From the NCBI GenBank assembly GCA_032595675.1, contig JAVQMD010000001.1:1768640-1832639 (forward strand): a DNA stretch of 64,000 bases, in the 5' to 3' direction. The notes under the pieces are model-generated. The model saw only the letters and a list, made by a program, of their open reading frames with translations. It had not been told where the DNA came from and ran no database searches. Position numbers and translations under genes: made by a program. This DNA comes from Candidatus Electrothrix rattekaaiensis (GTDB lineage: Bacteria; Desulfobacterota; Desulfobulbia; Desulfobulbales; Desulfobulbaceae). This document shows positions 4,552-17,634 of this stretch, piece by piece (positions within the stretch are counted from its first letter, which is position 1; the number at the start of each line of letters is the position of its first letter).

Positions 4552-5819
4552 CAATTGAAGGCAAATCCTCTGGTAAAGCCTCTGTTGAATCCTCTGTTCT
4601 TGCCCATCAGGCAGGAAAAATAGCAGAAAAGCTTCCCGGCGGCAATCAGCTTGCCCATTCTGTGGAAATGTTGGTTGCTTGGGGACGGGCAAACTCGCTC
4701 TGGCCCCTGCTGTACGGTACATCCTGTTGCGCCATTGAAATGATGTCTACCGGTGCCTCCCGGCATGACTGGGCACGTTTCGGCACAGAGGTCGCCCGAG
4801 CCAGTGCCCGGCAGGCAGACCTGATCATTCTGGCAGGAACTGTTGTTGAAAAGATGAGCGAAAATCTTATCACCCTGTACGAGCAGATGCCTGCTCCCAA
4901 ATACGTTATTGCTATGGGCTCTTGTGCTATCTCAGGAGGGCCTTTTTATTATGATTCGTATTCTGTGGTCAAAGGGGCTGATCGAATTATTCCGGTGGAT
5001 GTCTACATTCCGGGCTGTCCTCCTCGGCCAGAGGCTTTATTCTACGGCATCATGCAGTTGCAGGAAAAAATCAAAAAAGAAGGTCGTGAAATTCCTTGGG
5101 AGATTGGTGAATTGGTGAAGAGTCCGTTCTTTGACACCTTCACTGAAGCGCAGCAGGATTGGGCCGCTCTGGAGGAGAAAAAGGATCAGGAGATGGCTGA
5201 AGCTAGGGAACAGTTTAAGAAAGAAAATCCTGATTACAAACCACCTAGGCCAGCACGGCTGAAAAAAGAGAAAATGCCCTCCCCTTCCCAAAGAAAACCT
5301 GCGGCAAAGGGGATCAGTAACTGGACGCTTTTACAGACGCTCCAGAAAAAGTTTCCCGAAATCACAGTTCATGATCACCCTGATGCTTCACCGAAACAGG
5401 TGGCCGAGCTGGGCACGGACTATGTTCTTGATCTGGTTGTCCCCAAAGAACAGTATAGGGAGGTTGTGCAGTATCTGAAGGAAGATGAAGATCTTAGTCT
5501 AGAGATGTTCATCCAGCTCACCTGCGTGGATTGGAAGGAATATTTTGACATCGTGGTACATCTCCTCTCTGTGAAGGACGGACACAAACTTTTTCTCCGC
5601 TGCCGGGTGGACAAAGAAGAGGACGGTGCTGAGATAGAGACCATTTCTGATCTGTATGTGGGAGCTGACTGGCATGAACGTGAGGTCTACGACATGTTTG
5701 GGGTCCGTTTTACTGATCATCCGGATATGCGCAGAATCTACCTCAAGAATGATTTTTCTGGACATCCCTTGTGTAAAGATTTTGAGGATCCTTCTCGGGT
5801 GATCGTGCGCCCTTATTAA
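4542..5819 (+). CDS. nuoB: NADH-quinone oxidoreductase subunits B and C fused
   Basis: A single 425-residue protein joins NuoB and NuoC. Residues about 40-180 are NuoB, the carrier of the terminal [4Fe-4S] cluster N2. The expected cluster cysteines are visible: Cys62 and Cys63 in TSCCAIEM, Cys128 in MGSCAISGG and Cys159 in [10 protein letters not shown] charged Lys/Glu/Pro-rich linker (about 185-255) follows. Residues about 260-425 are NuoC, ending in the family signature [12 protein letters not shown] and [12 protein letters not shown]. It works in the peripheral arm of complex I, passing electrons to quinone. NuoB-NuoC fusions are less common than separate genes. The gene is followed by a convergent unrelated gene, not by nuoD. 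Confidence 0.93.
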
Positions 5820-6009
5820 AAGCATCCCATTATGCAACCTCCGACCCATAGAATATCATAGATTATAAATCAATGGGCCGGGGGTAAACATTATGCTTTG
5901 AGAAAAAAAGTAAATTTTCGTCTCTTCTTCCAGCTAAAAAAGCATTTGTTCCAAGTCATGTCCTACTGTTTGCAAGAAAAGACGGAATTGCTTGCCCATG
6001 AATCCGGGC

Positions 6010-6960
6010 TCAGCCTTTTTTCCGAGCTTCTTCTTCCTGCTTGAGACGCTCACGCTCAGCCTTGAGCTGCTTGTACTCTTCTTCAACCTGACGCAAAGAA
6101 TCACCCTGGCGTTGCTTGAGTTCCTCAACCTTTTCCTTTATCTTCTCTTTTCTGAGCTTCATGCCCTCAGCACCGAACAGGGTATTGGCCAGATACTGGA
6201 AGGAAAAAAGCATCAAGGCCGTATCGTCTTCCTTGATTTTTTCAATGGTCTCCTGGTCAACATCATAGGTGTCCAAAAAGGAGCTTTCGAAAACGAAGCG
6301 GCGGAAATGTTCCAGGTCTGTCGAGGCCATAAAAAACATCCTCTGGGCCGCTTCAGAAAGATTGGCCTGATGCCCAAAGGACTTACGCCGCATAACCAAA
6401 CGAAGCCATTCCTTATTTATTTCATCGCGAAGAGCAACCCCCTGATCTTCCCGCCATTCCCCGACAGTCCACTGTTTCGGCTCTTCAAAACCCTTACAAT
6501 GGGGCTCCTTCACCAAAAAGAAAAACTTATCCTCTTTGACTCCTTCCTGGCCACCTTCATGAAAATCAGCCATGCCCACCGGATAATAACGGCAGGATGT
6601 AGGCCGATCCTCATACACGGTGCAGCCTTCTGGGGTAACAAAAGGGCAGGCATTCGTTTCCTCAGTCAGCTTTATCTGCACACCGGGCATATCTGTTTTT
6701 TCCAGGTAGGTCGGCTCTGTATACTGAGTAATAAATTCATGAGCAGCAATATTCAGCCTTTTCCGCAAAATCAAAATATCGTACGGCGTCAGGACAATCT
6801 GTATATGATGGCAGCATGCAGTAAAACAGCTGACCCCAGGATGGCATTCAAACTGCAAGGATGAATCCAGGGTTAATTTCTCAGGCATGATATTGGACGG
6901 ATTTTTATTGGTCCCCTGCTTAAAATCATTTTCTATATCAGTGCCTTTTGTATCGCTCAT
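6010..6960 (-). CDS. YkgJ-family cysteine cluster protein
   Basis: The family (UPF0153/YkgJ) is thought to bind zinc or iron through a cysteine cluster; its role is not settled. Visible ligands are in CHPGVSCFTACCHH near the N-terminus, then CPF, GC and SCRYYPVG further on. The C-terminal third is a charged, probably coiled-coil region (EKIKEKVEELKQRQG and onward). I chose the start at 6960 (MSDTKG) because GAGGAG sits just upstream; a longer frame begins 12 nt earlier. It is convergent with nuoBC. Confidence in the family is high and in function low. Confidence 0.8.
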   Translation of the reverse strand: MSDTKGTDIENDFKQGTNKNPSNIMPEKLTLDSSLQFECHPGVSCFTACCHHIQIVLTPYDILILRKRLNIAAHEFITQYTEPTYLEKTDMPGVQIKLTEETNACPFVTPEGCTVYEDRPTSCRYYPVGMADFHEGGQEGVKEDKFFFLVKEPHCKGFEEPKQWTVGEWREDQGVALRDEINKEWLRLVMRRKSFGHQANLSEAAQRMFFMASTDLEHFRRFVFESSFLDTYDVDQETIEKIKEDDTALMLFSFQYLANTLFGAEGMKLRKEKIKEKVEELKQRQGDSLRQVEEEYKQLKAERERLKQEEEARKKG

Positions 6961-8373: not shown

Positions 8374-8526
8374 GGGCGACCGCCGGTCGCCCCTACACAC
8401 GCCCTGCCCCTGATTCCCTGCCGGTTCCATTCGCGGTGGTGCCTGCTCCGCGACGGCAACCACCGGAACGGAAACCGCAGCGAATCCTGCCTGCCTGTAC
8501 GGGGCACGGCACGCCGTGTGCGCCCT
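8374..8526. repeat. Conserved 3' block and palindromes after FGE-like gene 1
   Basis: The block begins with the palindrome GGGCGAC-CGC-CGGTCGCCC (8374-8392), then about 95 bp (about 8401-8490) also found at about 9666-9750 and 15670-15757, then the palindrome GGGCACGGCACGCCGTG about 8501-8517, which abuts the stop of the FGE-like gene. All three copies lie just downstream of a DGR-like variable region in the same orientation. Confidence 0.8.
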
Positions 8527-9337
8527 ACTGCTTGCTTGTTCGACCTCGGGCAAGCCGGAAACCAATCCAGTCGTGGCGGGAGCCAGGCTCGAACCCGGAG
8601 CGAAGGGCAGAACGGCAGTCCCTCGCGTCGTTGATCCAGGAGCCGCCCCGACACACACGGTAACGCCCATCAGACGGTCCAACAGGATCAACAACAGACC
8701 CTGCTGGATAATCACCAAACCAGTCCTGACACCACTCCCGGACATTGCCGTGCATCTGGTATAGTCCCCAATCGTTACAGGGCAGGGCCTTGACATCCAC
8801 CGTCTCTTCACGATATTCGCCTTTTTCACCTCCGGCATAGGGGTAATTGCCGTCATAATTCACCTGATCGGTGGTGACATTCTCTCCAAAAGAAAACGGG
8901 GTGGTCGTTCCAGCTCGGCAGGCATATTCCCATTGGGCTTCTGTCGGCAGGATCAACTCAAGGCCAGGAATTTCCTTATTCAGTCGCTCCATAAATTCTT
9001 GGGTATCCTCCCAGCTAATCTGCTCAACCGGTCGTTGATCTCCTTTAAAATGACTGGGATTCTCTTGCATCACCGCCTGCCAGAGGGCCTGGGGCACAGT
9101 GGTAGCCCCTAGCCAAAAACCTTCGGTCAAGGTGACTTGGTGCAATATTTCATCATCATACCGCTCCGGCTCATCCTCCGGCGAACCCATCATAAAAGTC
9201 CCCGGCTCAATCCAACGCAGGACATGGCGCAACTTCTGAAAATGAAAGGCCATCCACAGGCCGTGTTCGTCTTCACCCCATTCTGAGGCCCAGCGGTCTG
9301 GGAAGGATTCTGGCCAGCGTTTGGATTCGTTTATCAT
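8525..9337 (-). CDS. FGE/SUMF1-like protein 1 with DGR-type variable C-terminus
   Basis: This 270-residue protein consists almost wholly of a formylglycine-generating-enzyme-like domain (C-type-lectin-like fold). Family motifs are GTFMMGSPEDEP, LPTEAQWEYACRAGT, NDWGLYQMHGNVREWC and GYRVCRGGSW-like, ending GFRLARG. True FGE oxidises a sulfatase cysteine, but most bacterial homologues of this size are binding or sensor domains, and I infer binding here. The only cysteines late in the protein are in YRVCRGG and DCRSA; whether a copper-binding Cys pair is intact cannot be decided. It is paralogous to the C-terminal third of the 9787-12624 gene and to the 15761-16585 gene. Its last variable codons (8564-8635) look DGR-diversified. 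The product is probably cytoplasmic, with no signal peptide. Confidence 0.88.
   Translation of the reverse strand: MINESKRWPESFPDRWASEWGEDEHGLWMAFHFQKLRHVLRWIEPGTFMMGSPEDEPERYDDEILHQVTLTEGFWLGATTVPQALWQAVMQENPSHFKGDQRPVEQISWEDTQEFMERLNKEIPGLELILPTEAQWEYACRAGTTTPFSFGENVTTDQVNYDGNYPYAGGEKGEYREETVDVKALPCNDWGLYQMHGNVREWCQDWFGDYPAGSVVDPVGPSDGRYRVCRGGSWINDARDCRSALRSGFEPGSRHDWIGFRLARGRTSKQ
8564..8635 (-). other. DGR-like variable repeat, copy 1
   Basis: A 72-bp segment near the 3' end of FGE-like gene 1. Compared with copy 2 (9826-9897) there are 14 substitutions in 10 codons, all at first or second codon positions and all amino-acid changing, while the intervening codons are identical. Each differing site could derive from adenine in an AAC/AAT-rich template. 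Confidence 0.75.
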
Positions 9338-9374
9338 GAATTTCTGGTGTTATTTGTCACGATTATGGTGGGTT

Positions 9375-9610
9375 GTAGGGGTAGGTCCCTGTGCCTACCC
9401 TGTTGCGCCGACCCAGGGTGAGGATTTCGGGCAGACACGGGGATCTGCCCCTACCGTATCAGCCCTGAAGGGGCTGTATTTAGCCAGCCTGGGGTAACAC
9501 CCCAGGTAAACGGTAACCGCGCTGAACCAACCTGCCTGTACGGGGGCACGGCACGCCGTGTACCCTACGATGTCCTCCAATCCTCTCGTAGGGGCGACCG
9601 GCGGTCGCCC
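9375..9610. repeat. Cluster of small palindromic repeats
   Basis: The gap between two FGE-like genes is packed with imperfect inverted repeats: 9375-9400 (TAGGTCCCTGTGCCTA core), 9429-9454 (GGGCAGACACGGGGATCTGCCC), about 9459-9508 (paired GCCCTGAAGGGGC and CCTGGGGTAACACCCCAGG), 9543-9568 (GGGCACGGCACGCCGTG) and 9588-9610 (GGGCGACCGGCGGTCGCCC). The same types recur at 15.6, 17.5, 19.0-19.4, 23.9 and 48.7 kb. Confidence 0.8.
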
Positions 9611-9632
9611 TGGTACAATTTCCCCGCATATT

Positions 9633-9787
9633 CAGGGTAGACACGGGGGTCTACCCCTACACACGCCCTTCCCTGATTCCCTGCCGGTTCCATTCGCGGT
9701 GGCGCCTGCTCCGCGACGGCAACCACCGGAACGGAAGCCGCAGCGAATCCTGAACTTGCCTGTACGGGCACGGCACGCCGTGCGCCC
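9633..9787. repeat. Conserved 3' block after the long FGE-like gene
   Basis: A palindrome (GGGTAGACACGGGGGTCTACCC, about 9635-9656) is followed by the second copy of the about 95-bp block (about 9666-9750) and by GGGCACGGCACGCCGTGCGCCC (9766-9787), which touches the stop codon of the upstream gene. Confidence 0.8.
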
Positions 9788-12624
9788 TACTGCTTGCTTG
9801 TTCGACCTCGGGCAAGCCGGAAACCAAACCAGTTGATGCGGTAGCCAGGCTCGAACCAGGAGCGATAGGCAGAACGGCAGTACCTCGCGATGAGGAACCA
9901 GGAGCCGCCCCGACACACACGGTCACGCCCCTCAGACGGTCCAGCAGGATCAATCGCGATCTCGTCTGAATAATCACCGAACCAATCCCGGCACCATTCC
10001 CAAACATTACCATGCATCTGGTACAGGCCCCAATCATTACAAGGCAAATCTTTGACGTCAACGGTTTCCTCACGATACTCGCCCTTTTCACCGTCTGCAT
10101 AGGGAAAATTACCGTCATAATTGACGTGCTCCGGGGTGATATCGGCACCGAAGGAAAACGGGGTAGAGGTTCCGGCGCGGCAGGCATATTCCCATTGAGC
10201 CTCGGAGGGCAAGTCCAGCTCAAGACCGGGGTTCTCCTTATTGAGCTGCACCATAAATTTCTGCACATCCTCCCAGCTCACCCGTTCCACTGGTCGTTCA
10301 GCCCCTTTGAATCTACTTGGATTATTTCCGGTCACAGCCTTCCACAGGGCTTGGGGACAGGCAGTATCAGCCAGCCAATAGCTTTCGGTCAGAATCACCT
10401 CATGCTGCGGCCCTTCTTTTTCCCATCGCTTCGGTTCATTATCAGGTGAACCCATCATAAAACGCCCCGGCTGAACCCAACGAAACCGTTGGGTCACGCC
10501 TTTGAAAACCAAATCTGCGTACAGGCCGTATTGATCTTCGCCGATATGTTCTGCCCATGAAGGTTGACGAAAGCCCTGTTCTCGAATTTCATCAAACTCA
10601 TCCTCTCGCATCCAGCAGCCTTTTTTGATGGCAAAACTCCCCAACGAACCACCTTGCTTATCCCGCAAGGGATATTCCTGGGGCGGCAACCAGTAGAGAT
10701 CCGCAGTATCGCTCCCCGAGGACAAACAAAGCCCCAACCCCTTTTGATCACGACGAATACGCTTTGCCCATTTGGGCAAAGTGATCCCCTCAACGGTCAA
10801 GCGTTCTTGCGAACCCTGAATGTGGAGCAGCCCGGATTTTGGCACCGGGATCGAGTCGAGATGTTCTGTATTGCGAAGATGCAAGCCCCCTTGCCTGCCC
10901 TGCTCATCTTCATGCTGCCACTGGAACTGCATGCTGTCCAGATGCAAAACACCAAGCGGACTGCCCTGCGCTGGCCCGCTGTCCGGTTCAAGCTCCAAGG
11001 GTTCAAGCCGCTGCATCAGCCGATACCGTTTTTCTTGGCCAGCTCCCTGTAAGGCCCAGAGTACCTTGTTACAATCAAAGCCTTCAGGTAACTCAGGGTC
11101 CTGACCAACTTCCACCCTTTTACTGGCCATCCGGGCGACCACCGCGCTCAGGGGATCAGCAAGGGCAGATTGCCATATAGCGGGGTGCATATCCCCCTGC
11201 TTGCGCCGAACCCAGGATTCAAGTTGGTTCAGACGGGAAAAACCTTGTGGATCATCCTGGGTAGCAACCAGGTCCCAGAAAAACTGTTGGGCCTGTTCTG
11301 CCAGCGCAGATTTACCTTCCAGTTCTGCCAGGATCAACTCTTCAGCAGCCTGTTCAGCTTGGGGCAGATACTTATGCAAAGCCTGCAAGAGCTTGCTGAC
11401 AGCGACCTTTTTGTCTGAGGGCAAAGCCCGAAATCTTTCCCGTCGCCTGTGCATGGCTTCCGGGTTCCACAGGGCACCCAGCGGGGTTGGGTAGACATCC
11501 TGATGCAACCAGGCCGCAATTTCACAACCCACATCCATAGGCTCTGAAGACAGGAGACAGCGCACAGCACGAATCAGGGCCGGTTCCAGATGTGTTGCTG
11601 GGGCCAACAGATCAAGCAGCTGATCAACCTGGGCCTCGGCTTCTTCTCCGCTCCCTCCCTTTTTCCGCATCCTCTGCATGGGTTTGGCAGGGAAACGCCG
11701 TTCAATATCCCAGACATACATGCTGAACAGGCGGGCTGTCCGCCGCGACCAATAGCGCTCAGGACAGGGAACCAAGGCAACCGGCTCCAGACCGGCTGAC
11801 CGCAACAGCCTGCCAAAGCTCATCCAGGCCTTTTTTTGTCCTCCGGGCAGGAGCCCGAGATCTCCCAGCACCAAGATCGGTGTTCCGGCAACAGGGCGAC
11901 GATAGTGCTGCAAGGGGAAACGTTTTCCTGGCTCGTACTGGCGACAAGGACCGTTGGGCCCCTGTTCAAAAACAAGGATTTCCATCCCGGCAGTACCGCG
12001 AAAGGAAGACAGCCTGTCTGCCAGGGCAATAAAATCCTGCCAAAAGGGCAACAGGCGAAGATCACGATCAAGAATCAGCTGGCAGCTTGTACTCCAGGAA
12101 CGACGGGGAATTTTAGGGAGAACTCGGAGGACTTCCCCCTGAGAAATACACTTTATCAAACGCCGGAGATCCAACGTGCGACCATACTGCGCCTGACCAA
12201 GGACAAGACGTAAAAAGGGCCAAAGCCGTTTCCAAGGGGCAAGGTCCGCAGGGATTGGTGGACTTCCCAGGGTAATCCCGGTTTGTTCCCGTTCAGCAAG
12301 CGAACGCCCGGTATCCGCATCCAGGGGGCGTTCCAGATGCCGATCTTTCGGGGCAATGGCCTCCCGTTCCCTGACCAGAAAAAAACGAGCCTTGGGTTTC
12401 TTGGTAGACCCTATCGACGGAGGCGTTGGTTCTGTTGCTCCGGCTTGCCCGTCTGTCTCAGGAAAAGGCCGCTGTTTTTTAGCTGGCAGCTCTCTCTGCG
12501 CCGGTTCAAAACCGACAAGATCAGCCAGTTCAGCATGGCGAGCTGAAGCATGCTGGGCCAGCAAATAGAGCAGGTCAGCCCGAGATCGTGCCGAACGACG
12601 AAAGGGGCGATCAGGAGGAATCAT
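9787..12624 (-). CDS. vWA-like/FGE-like fusion protein of the MoxR cluster
   Basis: This 945-residue protein starts 12 bp after the MoxR gene, clearly in one operon. Residues 1-120 are a Pro/Arg-rich low-complexity leader. Residues about 175-330 resemble a von Willebrand A fold (QLILDRDLRLLPFWQD, GTPILVLGDLGLLPGG, GLEPVALVPCP), but the metal-site motif DxSxS is replaced by DRDLR, so the MIDAS is probably inactive. A helical middle follows. Residues about 690-945 are an FGE/SUMF1-like domain (GRFMMGSPDNEP, LPSEAQWEYACRAGT, MHGNVWEWC) ending in a DGR-type variable region. MoxR ATPases commonly remodel partners through vWA proteins; here the vWA partner also carries the presumed recognition domain. 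Confidence 0.85.
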   Translation of the reverse strand: MIPPDRPFRRSARSRADLLYLLAQHASARHAELADLVGFEPAQRELPAKKQRPFPETDGQAGATEPTPPSIGSTKKPKARFFLVREREAIAPKDRHLERPLDADTGRSLAEREQTGITLGSPPIPADLAPWKRLWPFLRLVLGQAQYGRTLDLRRLIKCISQGEVLRVLPKIPRRSWSTSCQLILDRDLRLLPFWQDFIALADRLSSFRGTAGMEILVFEQGPNGPCRQYEPGKRFPLQHYRRPVAGTPILVLGDLGLLPGGQKKAWMSFGRLLRSAGLEPVALVPCPERYWSRRTARLFSMYVWDIERRFPAKPMQRMRKKGGSGEEAEAQVDQLLDLLAPATHLEPALIRAVRCLLSSEPMDVGCEIAAWLHQDVYPTPLGALWNPEAMHRRRERFRALPSDKKVAVSKLLQALHKYLPQAEQAAEELILAELEGKSALAEQAQQFFWDLVATQDDPQGFSRLNQLESWVRRKQGDMHPAIWQSALADPLSAVVARMASKRVEVGQDPELPEGFDCNKVLWALQGAGQEKRYRLMQRLEPLELEPDSGPAQGSPLGVLHLDSMQFQWQHEDEQGRQGGLHLRNTEHLDSIPVPKSGLLHIQGSQERLTVEGITLPKWAKRIRRDQKGLGLCLSSGSDTADLYWLPPQEYPLRDKQGGSLGSFAIKKGCWMREDEFDEIREQGFRQPSWAEHIGEDQYGLYADLVFKGVTQRFRWVQPGRFMMGSPDNEPKRWEKEGPQHEVILTESYWLADTACPQALWKAVTGNNPSRFKGAERPVERVSWEDVQKFMVQLNKENPGLELDLPSEAQWEYACRAGTSTPFSFGADITPEHVNYDGNFPYADGEKGEYREETVDVKDLPCNDWGLYQMHGNVWEWCRDWFGDYSDEIAIDPAGPSEGRDRVCRGGSWFLIARYCRSAYRSWFEPGYRINWFGFRLARGRTSKQ
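9826..9897 (-). other. DGR-like variable repeat, copy 2
   Basis: The 72-bp segment at the 3' end of the vWA/FGE gene. Codons at ten slots (TTC, CTC, ATC, TAC, TAT, TGG, TAC, ATC, AAC, TTT) differ from copy 1 (ATC, AAC, GAC, GAC, CTT, GGG, TCC, CAC, GAC, ATT), always keeping the third base. Flanking codons are identical through the stop. Confidence 0.75.
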
Positions 12625-12636
12625 GGGTTAGGCCCC

Positions 12637-13614
12637 TTAATCTTCATCCAGATCAACGTATTTTTTCAAGGCATATTCAGCCACTGTTGCAAGCAGATTT
12701 TTTTGCTCCTTAAAATCACCAAGGGCAAGACGGGACAGGGCACGCAGCATATCAAGGTATTCGGCCTGCCCCGGCGGCGTACCGCCCTGACGACGGGCCT
12801 CAGCCCGATCTGCCCAGAGCAATTTTGCGGTTTCCCGCATCACCTCTTCGGAACAGCCGGTGCCGAAATGATGCTCTCCCCGTTTCATCAAAAAGCGGCA
12901 AAACTCTTTTTCCTCTTTGGGCAGGCGCAGATGCAGGACCAGACAGCGTCGGACAAAGGCCGGAGGCAGCTCCCGCTCCTCGTTGGTGGTGATAATCACC
13001 AAGGGAACGGTTGTGTTACTCATCCCCACTGGCTCTTGCAGATACGGCACCGGAAAACTGCCGTTCCCCAAGGTCTCCAGCAGGCCGTTGGGCAGGTCCG
13101 CATCAGCCTTGTCGATCTCATCTATGAGCAGAACAGTCCCCTTTTCTTTTGTCCACCCTTGGGGTGGTTCAGGACGAGAGTAATGATGGGGGCATTGCTT
13201 GTATCGCGTATCTGCCTTTTCCCAATCAAAGACCCACCAGAGCGGACCAGGGCTGAGATAATTAATCGGGGCCAGTTTTTTCCGTACCTCTTCTTCCTGA
13301 CGGCAGATATGGCCCAAGGCCTGGGCCTCACCTAACCGTCCCACCGCATCAAAATGATATTGCAGCTCTTGGCTCTCGCTGCGGGAATGGACGACCTCAG
13401 ACACGAAAAGCCGTTCCAGATGCTCGGCAGCAGCTCGGGCCAGCTGGCTCTTGCCGGTTCCGGGTTCGCCCCGGATCAACAGCGGTCGTTCAGCGCATAG
13501 AGCGGCCCGAATCGCATTGACGCTGTAGCTGTCAAAGACATGCACGGTTGCTGGCCAGGAACCTCTTTTAGGGAGAGTTATTTTTTCTTCAAGGGGGAAT
13601 GCTTTGATCTTCAT
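12637..13614 (-). CDS. MoxR-family AAA+ ATPase
   Basis: This 325-residue AAA+ ATPase has Walker A GEPGTGKS (49-56), Walker B VLLIDE (161-166), sensor 1 near VIITTNEERELP and an arginine-finger region PPAFVRRCLVLHL. It belongs to the MoxR-like group, whose members act as chaperones or remodellers together with vWA-domain partners. Its start overlaps the end of the nucleoside-phosphorylase-like gene by 4 bp (ATGA), and the vWA/FGE gene begins 12 bp after its stop, so these three genes are translated as a unit. It is the likely NTP-dependent switch of the cluster. Its specific client is unknown. Confidence 0.9.
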   Translation of the reverse strand: MKIKAFPLEEKITLPKRGSWPATVHVFDSYSVNAIRAALCAERPLLIRGEPGTGKSQLARAAAEHLERLFVSEVVHSRSESQELQYHFDAVGRLGEAQALGHICRQEEEVRKKLAPINYLSPGPLWWVFDWEKADTRYKQCPHHYSRPEPPQGWTKEKGTVLLIDEIDKADADLPNGLLETLGNGSFPVPYLQEPVGMSNTTVPLVIITTNEERELPPAFVRRCLVLHLRLPKEEKEFCRFLMKRGEHHFGTGCSEEVMRETAKLLWADRAEARRQGGTPPGQAEYLDMLRALSRLALGDFKEQKNLLATVAEYALKKYVDLDED

Positions 13615-15479
13615 GTGTATTGCCTCAATCTTATAAGAAAATTGCGAATATATTCACTCAACTCCTCTCCGGCCCAAGTCACCCCGGTGCCCCTGCCTTT
13701 AACACCGAATGCGATCATTTTCAGACAGGGCACACGATAACGCAACAGCTCTATAACATCAGGATCATTGAGGGGATTATGCTGTTCATTGCCAGAGGAC
13801 ATACAGTAGAAGTCCTTTTCCCATAAACTCGACTCTCTCAGCGCGGTATTAAGCCGTTGATCCAGGCGGAGGCGATCCTTTCGTTGCTCTTCCGGGTTAT
13901 CACCCTTGACCTCTGGACGATCTGAACCGTAAATAATTTTCCAGACAGCCCGTATCATCCCCTCCACCTGATCCTCTTTTCGATACCCGAACTCAGCAAG
14001 ACGATTCAGGTCAATAGCACCCAGCCCATAGACCTGATCAGATTGAATTTCCGTTTGATACCCCGCAGAACGCTTGCCGGTAAAGGCAATAACGACCTCC
14101 ACCGGAGCATACTCATGCAAACCAATTTCCAGGCGGAATCCTTGATCCGGGGCAGGTTGACCGATCTGATCAATGAGAAATCGTTCATCAACAGCCCGAA
14201 GCAGCAGCCAACCTATGATCATTTTGACACGCTCCACTGCATTGGGAAGCTTGGCAGGCTCATGCAACTGAAGTTTATCCAAAAAAGAAAAAACCGGGTC
14301 TTTTAACTTGTCCAGGGGCCAACGAGGAATCGGATGACGGCAGAGTATTTTTGTCGCCTCCAGAGCAGTCTCTCCCTTGACCTGATCATGCAGTTTTTCC
14401 CACATCAACTGGAACAACTCTGGAAGAAACTCCAGTTCTTTGCAGACATGGTCTTCAATCATCTGCTGAACAGGAGTCAGGTCCTCATCAGCCATTATCC
14501 GATCAGAGGTGGAAGGTGCAATGATACTGCTGTTGCTCTGCACAACGTTGTCGGCGTCTCCGCTCTCCTGCTCTGTTGGCGGAGAATCGTCAAGCGCAGA
14601 CAATTTCCTACCCGGCGTTTTCGTGTCCAGGTATTGGGCTAGCAGCTCAAAGGCAAAGGCGGCAGCGTGGGCTGAGGCGATTTCCTGGGAACCTCCGGCA
14701 TCGGATGCACCCTTTTTATCTAACAGGTCGGAAATGCCGCGAATGACAATGGCTGGTTTCCCCTGGTGCTCCCGTATAGCCCGCAGAAAACCAATACCTT
14801 CCATTTCAACAGCAGCAGTATCGTTATAGGAACGTTTAATCAATAAATAATATTGGCTCTTAGTGGTAGCATGCAACTTACCACCAGTGGCAATCGGAGC
14901 CACTTTTGCCTGTATGCTTTTCTGCTTTTCATCTGCCGAAACACGCTGAAGCCAATCCGTTTTTCTGGCAATAATTCTGGATAGACTGATGAGCTCTTTG
15001 CTGGAATGTTCGAGCTGAGGCCGTGCATTCAGTTGTACCTGCTCCTGGGAACTTGATTCACCGGGCCTGCTGAATGTACGTATTATTTTGGCCCAAATGC
15101 CATCAGATCGTTTTTCAGTGGATGATTTCGGACGCTCTTCTATTTTTACTTGCTCATATCCATAGACCTTGTCGCCAATAACAACATCCCCTACCTGCAT
15201 ATCTTTTACGCCGCCTGCAACACCGACAAAAAAAAGGCAGTCCGGTTTGAGTTCCCTGACCACGTTATGGGTTTCTAGCAAGGCCTCATCCGATCCCATA
15301 CCGATCTCAGCAACTGCCACACGACAAATCACTGTATCATCAACGACGAACTCGCCATGTTCACAGCAGGCCCCGCTATCTAATGGTTGCACACCCTGAA
15401 CATTGATCATTGAACAAACCGCCTTTGCTTCCACAGGCAAGGCAGTGAGAATGACGGCTAAGGGTCTTTTTTTTGACAT
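13611..15479 (-). CDS. Nucleoside phosphorylase-like (PNP/MTAN fold) protein with C-terminal extension
   Basis: This is a 622-residue protein; I start it at 15479 (MSKKRPLAV) because GGAG lies just upstream and the longer frame runs back through repeat DNA. Residues 1-310 match the PNP_UDP/MTA-SAH nucleosidase superfamily: ILTALPVEAKAV, FFVGVAGGVKDMQVGDVV, AVEMEGIGFL and VIRGISDLLD with the catalytic-type Asp. Similar domains open many conflict or NLR-like proteins, where they may cleave a nucleotide or sense one. Residues about 345-622 are a second domain that I do not recognise. It is the first gene of the tightly coupled set with the MoxR ATPase and vWA/FGE gene and could be the effector or the sensor. 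Confidence 0.8.
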   Translation of the reverse strand: MSKKRPLAVILTALPVEAKAVCSMINVQGVQPLDSGACCEHGEFVVDDTVICRVAVAEIGMGSDEALLETHNVVRELKPDCLFFVGVAGGVKDMQVGDVVIGDKVYGYEQVKIEERPKSSTEKRSDGIWAKIIRTFSRPGESSSQEQVQLNARPQLEHSSKELISLSRIIARKTDWLQRVSADEKQKSIQAKVAPIATGGKLHATTKSQYYLLIKRSYNDTAAVEMEGIGFLRAIREHQGKPAIVIRGISDLLDKKGASDAGGSQEIASAHAAAFAFELLAQYLDTKTPGRKLSALDDSPPTEQESGDADNVVQSNSSIIAPSTSDRIMADEDLTPVQQMIEDHVCKELEFLPELFQLMWEKLHDQVKGETALEATKILCRHPIPRWPLDKLKDPVFSFLDKLQLHEPAKLPNAVERVKMIIGWLLLRAVDERFLIDQIGQPAPDQGFRLEIGLHEYAPVEVVIAFTGKRSAGYQTEIQSDQVYGLGAIDLNRLAEFGYRKEDQVEGMIRAVWKIIYGSDRPEVKGDNPEEQRKDRLRLDQRLNTALRESSLWEKDFYCMSSGNEQHNPLNDPDVIELLRYRVPCLKMIAFGVKGRGTGVTWAGEELSEYIRNFLIRLRQYT

Positions 15480-15596
15480 CCCAGACTCCAACTCTGAAAA
15501 TATTTTTATTTCCCAGAGAGCTACCCTGGGCAGAATACATTGAACCCCTTCAGGGTTCCCTGCCCTGAACACCCCAGGCACTCGGTGGCAAACGGG

Positions 15597-15757
15597 CACG
15601 GCACGCCGTGTACCCTACGATATTCCAGTTTTCATTCCAGGGCGACCGCCGGTCGCCCCTACGCACGCCCTCCTCTGATTCCCTGCCGGTTCCATTCTCG
15701 GGGCTGCCTGCTCCGCGACGGCAACCACCGGAACGGAAGCCGCAGCGAATCCTGCCT
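15597..15757. repeat. Palindromes and conserved 3' block after FGE-like gene 3
   Basis: GGGCACGGCACGCCGTG begins about 15595, then GGGCGACCGCCGGTCGCCC about 15641-15659, then the third copy of the about 95-bp block (about 15670-15757). Here the GGGCACGG palindrome is on the far side of the block rather than between block and gene as in the other two copies. Confidence 0.75.
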
Positions 15758-15760
15758 GCT

Positions 15761-16585
15761 TTATCTTGACGTGCTTGTTCGACCTCGGGAAAGACGAAAA
15801 CCAAGCGTGATGCTGCGGGCATCCGGCGTGAGCCTGCTGCGGATGGCAGAACGGCAGAGCCTGCCGAGGCTGAACCAGGAGCCGCCGCGATACACACGGA
15901 GACGCCCGGTAGCAGCCCCCAAAGGATCAGTCACCGATTCCTTGGGGTAGTCTCCGTACCGATCCCGGCACCATTCCCAAACATTGCCATGCATCTGGTA
16001 CAACCCCCAATCATTACAGGGCAGAGCCTTGACCTCTACGGTCTTTTTACGATACTCTCCCTTCTCACCATCTGCGTAAGGATGATTACCATCGTAATTG
16101 ACTTGGTCTGTACTGATATTGTCACCAAAAAAAAATGGGGTAGTGGTTCCGGACCGGCAGGCATATTCCCATTGGGCCTCGGTGGGCAGGTCCAGCTCAA
16201 GACCGGGAATTTCCTTATTGAGCTGGGCCATAAACTTTTGCGCATTCTCCCAACTCACCTGCTCCACCGGTCGTTGATCTCCTTGAAACTTGCTGGGATT
16301 ATCTCCGACCACAGCCTGCCACAGGGCCTGAGTCACCGTGGTGGCACCGAGCCAGAAGCCCTCACTCAGGGTTACCTGATGCAGCGTTTCATCTGTTCCC
16401 AAAGACTCGCGCTCCGCCTCATCCTTTGGCGATCCCATCATAAAAGTCCCCGGCTCAATCCAGCGCATAACATGGCGCACCTTTTTATAATGAAAGGCCA
16501 TCCACAACCCATACTCATCCTCACCCCATTCCGAGGCCCAACGGTCAGGAAAAGATTCCGGCCAACGTTTGGATTCATCGATCAT
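15761..16585 (-). CDS. FGE/SUMF1-like protein 3 with variable C-terminus
   Basis: This 274-residue protein has the start set at 16585 (MIDESKRWPES) because AGGAAAGGGAAT precedes it and the aligned paralogue starts at the same residue; a longer frame begins at 16648. It carries the same FGE-like motifs as its paralogues (GTFMMGSPKDEA, LPTEAQWEYACRSGT, MHGNVWEWC, GFRLSRG). The variable C-terminal codons (15803-15874) fall at the same slots as in the other copies, but invariant codons also differ, so it is an older duplicate or uses a different template. It starts 16 bp after the membrane-protein gene and so shares its transcript. Confidence 0.87.
   Translation of the reverse strand: MIDESKRWPESFPDRWASEWGEDEYGLWMAFHYKKVRHVMRWIEPGTFMMGSPKDEAERESLGTDETLHQVTLSEGFWLGATTVTQALWQAVVGDNPSKFQGDQRPVEQVSWENAQKFMAQLNKEIPGLELDLPTEAQWEYACRSGTTTPFFFGDNISTDQVNYDGNHPYADGEKGEYRKKTVEVKALPCNDWGLYQMHGNVWEWCRDRYGDYPKESVTDPLGAATGRLRVYRGGSWFSLGRLCRSAIRSRLTPDARSITLGFRLSRGRTSTSR
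15803..15874 (-). other. DGR-like variable repeat, copy 3
   Basis: The 72-bp counterpart of copies 1 and 2. The variable slots read TTC, AGC, CTC, CTC, ATC, AGG, GCC, AGC, ATC, CTT: nearly all NNC or NNT, as expected from AAC/AAT template codons. Several fixed codons differ from copies 1 and 2. Confidence 0.6.
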
Positions 16586-17538: not shown

Positions 17539-17634
17539 GGGCACGGCACGCCGTGCGCCCTACCTTCCCTCGGTTTGCCCTTCCGCCCTGAAGGGGATCT
17601 ATCTATCAGCCTAGGGGTAACACCCCAGGCAAAC
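17539..17634. repeat. Palindromic repeats between antitoxin and hisD
   Basis: GGGCACGGCACGCCGTGCGCCC (17539-17560) is followed by the paired repeat type CCCTGAAGGGG ... CCTAGGGGTAACACCCCAGG (about 17591-17630). This matches the arrangement at about 9459-9508 and fills the gap between convergent genes. Confidence 0.75.

Follow-up and report, generated by a model that had tools for sequence, protein, structure and literature searches.

Can genes carry the marks of a diversity-generating retroelement (DGR) in a genome that seems to possess none? The question is raised by a window of 64,000 nucleotides from contig JAVQMD010000001.1 of Candidatus Electrothrix rattekaaiensis, in which three minus-strand genes for FGE-like proteins end in 72-bp segments that a first-pass annotation had taken for DGR variable regions (VRs; Table 1). 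We compared these segments with one another, with the 4.48-Mb assembly of the species (G000, 5 contigs) and with related genomes, including the congeners G001, G004, G005, G006 and G007, of which G004, G006 and G007 are single-contig (L numbers designate loci in the own or related genomes, C numbers contigs). On the evidence of their sequence, the three segments are very probably DGR-made, because of the placement of their differences on adenine slots, the replication of this pattern in a congener, the hairpins behind them, the homologous loci that have a reverse transcriptase (RT) and a template repeat (TR), and the nearest solved sequence, 2y3c. To this extent the first-pass annotation is well supported.

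All three segments consist of the 24 codons directly after the RGGSW motif, from which we count codons (RGGSW as 0). Pfam recognises an FGE-sulfatase domain in all three genes, and alignments with solved relatives place the VRs over its C-terminal part, which by sequence puts a C-terminal VR in a C-type-lectin/FGE fold, as in DGR targets. Copies 1 and 2 differ by 14 substitutions in 10 codons, spread 9/5/0 over codon positions 1, 2 and 3; the binomial probability of zero third-position changes among 14 is 0.0034. They are flanked by identical codons, 8 before and all 13 after, stop included. Coordinates, strand, location and counts had thus been given correctly. That every differing base could derive from adenine, also argued at first pass, is uninformative for two copies with no template, but 11 of the 14 differences do fall on consensus TR adenines of other loci (p=2e-6), so that variation on adenine slots with third codon bases kept is indirectly documented.

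These slots are the 22 of 96 positions that have an A in at least half of 19 TRs, drawn from 17 loci of a catalogue (L107 and L190 left out) plus TRs chosen by eye beside the RTs of L110 and L112; four of the 19 come from the same genus, and two of those four (G005, and L103 in G006) are orthologous. For the catalogue, we looked in 130 sources for second copies of the FGE tails that themselves have A at 80% or more of the mismatches; this yielded 35 VR/TR rows from 19 loci, four of the rows being duplicates listed under another locus id. As this threshold itself selects for A, the result is a catalogue and not a test. The slot pattern was replicated in G007, where the long and third targets differ at 20 positions (11/9/0), 16 of them on slots (p=4e-10); in the G005/G006 target pair, 15 of 20 differences (8/9/3) are on slots.

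Table 1. Features of the locus, in positions of the 64,000-nucleotide window
Feature	Position	Strand	Remarks
VR copy 1	8564..8635	minus	24 codons, 3' end of short target
VR copy 2	9826..9897	minus	3' end of long target; shares its template class with copy 1
VR copy 3	15803..15874	minus	3' end of third target; other template class, in common with short target of G006
Hairpin element behind VR copy 1	8391..8500	minus	fold z -3.5
Hairpin element behind VR copy 2	9655..9765	minus	fold z -4.2
Hairpin element behind VR copy 3	15657..15754	minus	fold z -2.6
Short target, stand-alone FGE / C-type-lectin-fold protein	8525..9337	minus	270 aa; Pfam FGE-sulfatase E 4.9e-45
Long target	9787..12624	minus	945 aa: N-terminal extension of ~680 aa and C-terminal FGE domain; FGE-sulfatase E 1.1e-40
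Third target, stand-alone FGE protein	15761..16585	minus	Pfam FGE-sulfatase E 1.8e-45
MoxR-like AAA ATPase	12637..13614	minus	Pfam AAA_5 E 2e-12; similar genes at equivalent place in homologous loci
Effector-like protein	13611..15479	minus	nucleoside-phosphorylase domain and C-terminal module; Pfam PNP_UDP_1 E 1.1e-18
Gap between long and short target	9338..9786		449 bp; place of HRDC protein, RT and TR in homologous loci
Dispersed near-palindromic repeat, exact copies	8505-8518, 9547-9560, 9769-9782, 15597-15610, 17542-17555		core CACGGCGTGCCGTG on minus strand

Among solved sequences, the short target is closest to 2y3c, a variable protein of Treponema denticola (E 4.6e-28, over stretches 66-120 and 128-263 of the 270 residues) that is described as a DGR target (PMC7159879), whereas no DGR partner was found in our own genome. 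A second link to known DGRs lies downstream of the VRs. The long, conserved hairpin elements have stems that start about 10-40 bp after the stop codon, and a search of the whole assembly at E<=0.001 returned these three copies and no others. The DGR of Bordetella phage BPP-1 likewise shows a VR followed by a hairpin/cruciform, with adenine mutagenesis, and there the hairpin is reported to be needed for efficient retrohoming (PMC3240598); it differs in having RT, Avd and TR in cis and a hairpin with an 8-bp stem and a 4-nt loop, far shorter than ours. When the 170 nt downstream of FGE tails were scanned uniformly (z<=-2), hairpins were found behind 16 of the 25 VRs of cis-DGRs and 9 of the 11 VRs classed as orphan or trans, as against 3 of 15 TRs and none of 3 other FGE tails (cis VR versus TR, p=0.005; orphan VR versus TR, p=0.0006). 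The orphan group includes tails whose DGR origin is itself deduced, such as L105 5925 and L116 6481; the counts leave out L201 7149 (z -1.1; neither a clear VR nor a clear TR) and the scan excluded L107, L108, L112, L113, L166, L190 and L228. L176, L210 and most of L215, which are cyanobacterial and planctomycete loci, gave no hairpin signal.

Where would the missing machine have been? In five homologous loci (L110 in genome G056, L154 in Methylomonas koyamae, L155 in Magnetococcales, L157 in Zoogloea and L176, with one extra FGE, in Isosphaeraceae), the order is MoxR, long target, an HRDC protein that we take to be an Avd, RT, TR and second target. The arrangement recurs in L167, where the RT frame is limited to 226 aa, the N-terminal extension has no match and the TR is seen only as a short FGE match. 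The order in the window is the homologous one minus HRDC-RT-TR, and the place of these three is occupied by dispersed repeats and an inverted repeat of 29 nt (9374-9402 / 9633-9661), with no RT. The equivalent gap measures 61 bp in G006, and G007 is without the short target. Such a configuration is not isolated: MoxR and FGE without an RT in the examined stretch were seen at 10 of 20 named loci, among which L213 keeps the HRDC protein. This last locus, from a Deltaproteobacteria metagenome-assembled genome, has two VRs with 19 base differences, none at third positions, and its genome has three DGR-grade RTs elsewhere.

The absence of RT and template from the window, reported at first pass, was borne out and extended: no DGR-type RT was found in the window or the whole assembly, and a scan of the window found no TR. 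The only two RVT_1 matches in the assembly are a group II-type RT (G000:C4) and a UG10-type RT (G000:C2). DGR RTs here carry the motif [IVL]GxxxSQ; these two have QGGVISP and GLPQG, respectively. Against a DGR-RT profile built from three sequences, on which whole DGR RTs score 193-557 bits, the group II-type RT gave the best G000 score, 89 bits, and the UG10-type no match at 1e-10. RTs of at least 193 bits occur in 13 of the 96 genomes searched, among them G001 and G006; G004 and G007 have no RT of that score, and G005 has a 48-bit RT piece at a contig end. Two inferred templates match only the three VRs in the assembly, all else being matches of 14-20 bases, and the best match to the HRDC protein of G001 reaches 21 bits (of the Avd types, the HRDC type alone was searched). 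None of the RT, TR and HRDC-type accessory protein of a complete DGR was thus found. Outside the assembly, the inferred template had no match in phages and two weak ones (72-77% identity) in plasmids, one in a protein named as FGE-family and one in a hypothetical protein; viral contigs had no match to two exact template patterns.

Completeness is 96.45 for G000 and 96, 95 and 96 for the single-contig G004, G006 and G007, and there is therefore no sign of a large missing part, although a small plasmid, an assembly gap or a subpopulation may carry the element. On balance we consider the HRDC-RT-TR cassette probably absent from this genome. Among the matches listed in a search of open-licence papers, we found no description of DGR targets in genomes that lack a DGR RT altogether, nor, among the papers listed, one that connects DGRs with cable bacteria, the presumed lineage.

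When were the VRs last rewritten? The bodies of the short and long targets, which differ at 49% of third positions, are to judge by this old paralogues; from the VR through the stop codon the figure is 0%. Between G000 and G006, the bodies of the short targets differ at 6% of third positions; in their VRs the figures are 46% for position 1 and 33% for position 2. The flanking hisD shows 26% third-position divergence. Low divergence in the body combined with high divergence at positions 1 and 2 of the VR places the rewriting of the VRs later than a recent split or exchange of the locus, and a rewriting that postdates the split from the G006 locus is supported by these comparisons. Of the earlier claim that the DGR is active or recently active, the second half is thus retained; current activity finds no support in this genome. 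Third-position divergence of the N-terminal extension rises from 4% in the first half to 24% in the second, which marks the locus, at the sequence level, as a mosaic. The long target of G006 (L101:5980-9699) has a different FGE tail that is not VR-like and, added at its C-terminal end, a stretch that weakly (28 bits) matches the C-terminus of the effector.

The reading we favour, and hold to be reasonably probable, is that the VRs are true DGR products in a MoxR conflict-type locus, orphaned by loss of the cassette. An RNA template would have been copied into cDNA with mutations at adenines, and this cDNA, directed by the 3' flank and the downstream hairpin, would have been substituted for the ends of three lectin-fold sensor genes. 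The HRDC-RT-TR cassette would once have stood between the long and the short target and then been lost, repeats taking its place. After the last rewriting, later than the separation from the G006 locus, the VRs would now be frozen, or awaiting the return of a DGR.

Several observations weigh against this interpretation. Three of the 14 changes lie off the consensus slots (position 1 of codons 15, 26 and 28), and the adenine specificity of our VRs is deduced from TRs of other loci. Copies 1 and 2 are of one template class; copy 3, a segment of the same kind, differs from them by 30 and 29 substitutions, 7 at third positions in each case, which is explained only by assuming a second template. 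The short and third targets of G006 show 6 third-position differences, with 14 of 31 differences on slots, and the first tandem FGE gene, compared between G000 and G007, 16 among 41; we attribute all three cases to differences of template or to age. There is noise in the hairpin scan, since 3 of 15 TRs pass and 9 of 25 cis VRs fail, and VR copy 2 reaches only z -1.7 in it. Finally, the loss of the cassette is deduced from gene order in relatives, and the locus showed no remnant of an RT.

Could a DGR still rewrite the three genes in trans, with RT and TR on a plasmid, on a phage, in an assembly gap or in part of the population? The first-pass annotation preferred this explanation and looked to the rest of the genome for the machine; the search of 4.48 Mb found no DGR RT, TR or HRDC partner, and on its own terms the proposal fails, with the proviso that 5 contigs could miss a small element. 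Action in trans on this target family is credible in itself. In G056, where the order is the same, the TR on contig C86 and a VR on contig C15 have 16 mismatches in 96 nt, every one at a TR adenine (16 of 17 over 108 nt); the VR adjoining this TR fits less well (11 of 15 at A). Among 13 genomes with an FGE-target locus lacking an RT in the examined stretch, whose completeness is not given, 7 have a DGR-grade RT (>=234 bits) elsewhere and 6 do not; all four cis control genomes score for such an RT. The lack of any silent difference between copies 1 and 2 through the stop also speaks for recent rewriting. On the other side stand the searches of the assembly, the phages and the viral contigs, the weakness of the two plasmid matches, and the single-contig G007, which has DGR-type VRs but no DGR-grade RT, its three template matches being VRs. 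We regard continuing rewriting in trans as rather unlikely.

Sources in trans were sought in seven named genomes, with at most two RT loci each (G098, G101 and G108 have further RT matches). Partial fits were obtained in G096 (at best 5 of 18 mismatches off TR adenines) and G101 (at best 4 of 19), and none at the RT loci examined in G098, G104, G105, G106 and G108. The own DGR of G006 (C1:2059271) was rejected as the source of the L101 VRs: the best fits of its TR and of the L103 TR leave 16, 19 and 31 non-adenine mismatches. C1:2059271 falls within L149 (G006:C1:2050000-2069000), a DGR with two large FGE-tailed targets flanking RT and TR, where 10 of 10 and 21 of 21 mismatches are at A.

A broader possibility is that the genus carries 'receiver-only' targets, which keep VR and hairpin while the RT/TR cassette comes and goes, being either mobile or retained by only some members of the population, so that the sensors would be re-randomised from outside even in a lineage without a DGR RT of its own. 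This fits because G000 and G007 have DGR-type VRs and no DGR RT was found in them, because the VR was overwritten from different templates in sister species, and because the TR of L103 in G006 is left without an RT in the examined stretch. We consider it improbable.

Alternatively, this lineage may never have had a DGR, gene conversion having homogenised the 3' ends and diversifying selection having changed exposed residues of the binding face. Both 3' ends are indeed alike from before the VR to beyond the hairpin, and FGE-type domains generally vary at the binding face. However, selection would not spare third positions (0/14 here, 0/20 in G007), and the changes sit where other genomes have TR adenines. 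FGE pairs that are old or not targets are, by contrast, rich in third-position changes: the second tandem NTPase-FGE gene, a non-target, differs between G000 and G007 at 14 positions (1/0/13), none on slots, and the second MoxR set of G000 has 24 of its 50 differences at third positions. Hairpins and homologous cis-DGR loci would also be left unexplained, and we judge this alternative very unlikely. Mutagenesis by the group II intron-type or the UG10-type RT, suggested by their being the sole RVT_1 matches of the assembly, is almost certainly wrong, given their non-DGR motifs, their profile results (89 bits and no match, versus 193-557), the lack of any VR template in the assembly and the assignment of the UG10-type RT to RT_UG10_large, a candidate defence RT.

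Loss of a cassette with retention of its VRs would have precedents. In Thiohalocapsa PB-PSB1, the DGR 4, 5 and 7 loci are likewise MoxR conflict-type loci with C-type lectin targets, and PMC10907252 describes replacement of the RT by arrays like miniature inverted-repeat transposable elements (MITEs; DGR 4 and 5) or of the TR (DGR 7), the VRs still being DGR-varied. That genome has, however, seven DGR RTs according to the same source, whereas none was found in our assembly. Incomplete DGR loci, trans targets and RTs displaced by MITE-like repeats are thus already known (PMC10907252), and our locus would be a further example. It offers a clean case of a DGR target separated from its machine, raises the question of whether and from where orphan VRs are rewritten, and shows why RT-first surveys of DGRs miss targets; the authors of one such survey state that it would not detect remote targets (PMC8144416).

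Within the genus, the loci form a series that may make the loss of the machine datable: complete in G001, with RT cut, TR and VR in G005, with TR and VR but no RT in the examined stretch in G006, and with VRs only in G000 and G007. The complete locus, L100 (G001:C97), is a cis-DGR with an FGE target, an HRDC protein, an RT bearing IGNLISQ and a TR, and 14 of 14 mismatches are at TR adenines. L103 (G006:C1, about 187.9 kb) has its TR at 5877-5972 and the target VR at 6928 (16 of 20 mismatches at A), with no RT in the examined 12 kb and a transposase-like open reading frame (ORF; 4997-5545, by eye) nearby. L106 in G005 is the same locus, its RT cut by the contig end and its TR and VR present.

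What might the diversified proteins do? The neighbourhood, with a presumed MoxR ATPase (the name rests on context and recall), an extended FGE sensor and a phosphorylase effector, resembles MoxR ternary conflict systems and probably works like one; the target proteins would then sense phage or other invaders. The ORF of the effector-like protein reaches 15599 from a GTG and that of the third target 16648 from a TTG; the likelier starts, in our reading, are the ATGs at 15479 and 16585. PADLOC assigns the effector-like protein to effector PN-superfamily (E 4.9e-18), and finds no family for the MoxR protein or any of the targets; NCBIfam gave no family over cut-off. In G006, the equivalent position is held by a trypsin-like protein with the same C-terminal module (160 of 300 residues identical). 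The vWA-MoxR-VMAP ternary systems described in PMC7159879 have in common with our locus the MoxR ATPase, the FGS/FGE domain and a nucleoside-phosphorylase or trypsin domain, and that paper links FGS domains to DGRs. They differ in that Pfam detected no vWA or VMAP family at our locus: the N-terminal extension of the long target has no Pfam family above threshold, vWA included, and the effector-like protein no match to a VMAP model. A MoxR-type ATPase is present; for want of a vWA or VMAP match we do not file the locus as a member. The neighbourhood is also like that of the clade 5A DGR loci of PMC10907252; an RT clade is not assignable to a locus without RT and TR.

The dispersed repeat stands just behind VR copies 1 and 2 and, with four of its five exact window copies around the targets, could be taken for a VR-specific element. 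It was rejected as such, 40 other short matches being listed genome-wide (E<=10).

Other FGE-tailed genes of the genus deserve mention. L116 (G000:C1:690000-706000) and L105 (G007) hold tandem FGE-tailed genes, NTPase-like by eye; between the species the tail of the first is hypervariable and that of the second conserved, which makes them a natural control pair. L115 (G000:C1:1636000-1650000) is the second own-genome set of MoxR with long and short FGE, with third-position-rich divergence between its tails, and no RT was seen in the examined 14 kb. In G004, which is without a DGR-grade RT, L104:6013 is a VR-like FGE tail with no FGE ORF of at least 200 aa listed and adjoining ORFs transposase-like by eye; it is perhaps a truncated target. 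Lastly, L002 (G000:C2:3641-4300), close to a contig end, belongs to a very large RT protein with an open frame of 1841 aa, which PADLOC matches to RT_UG10_large and, more weakly, to PrimPol.

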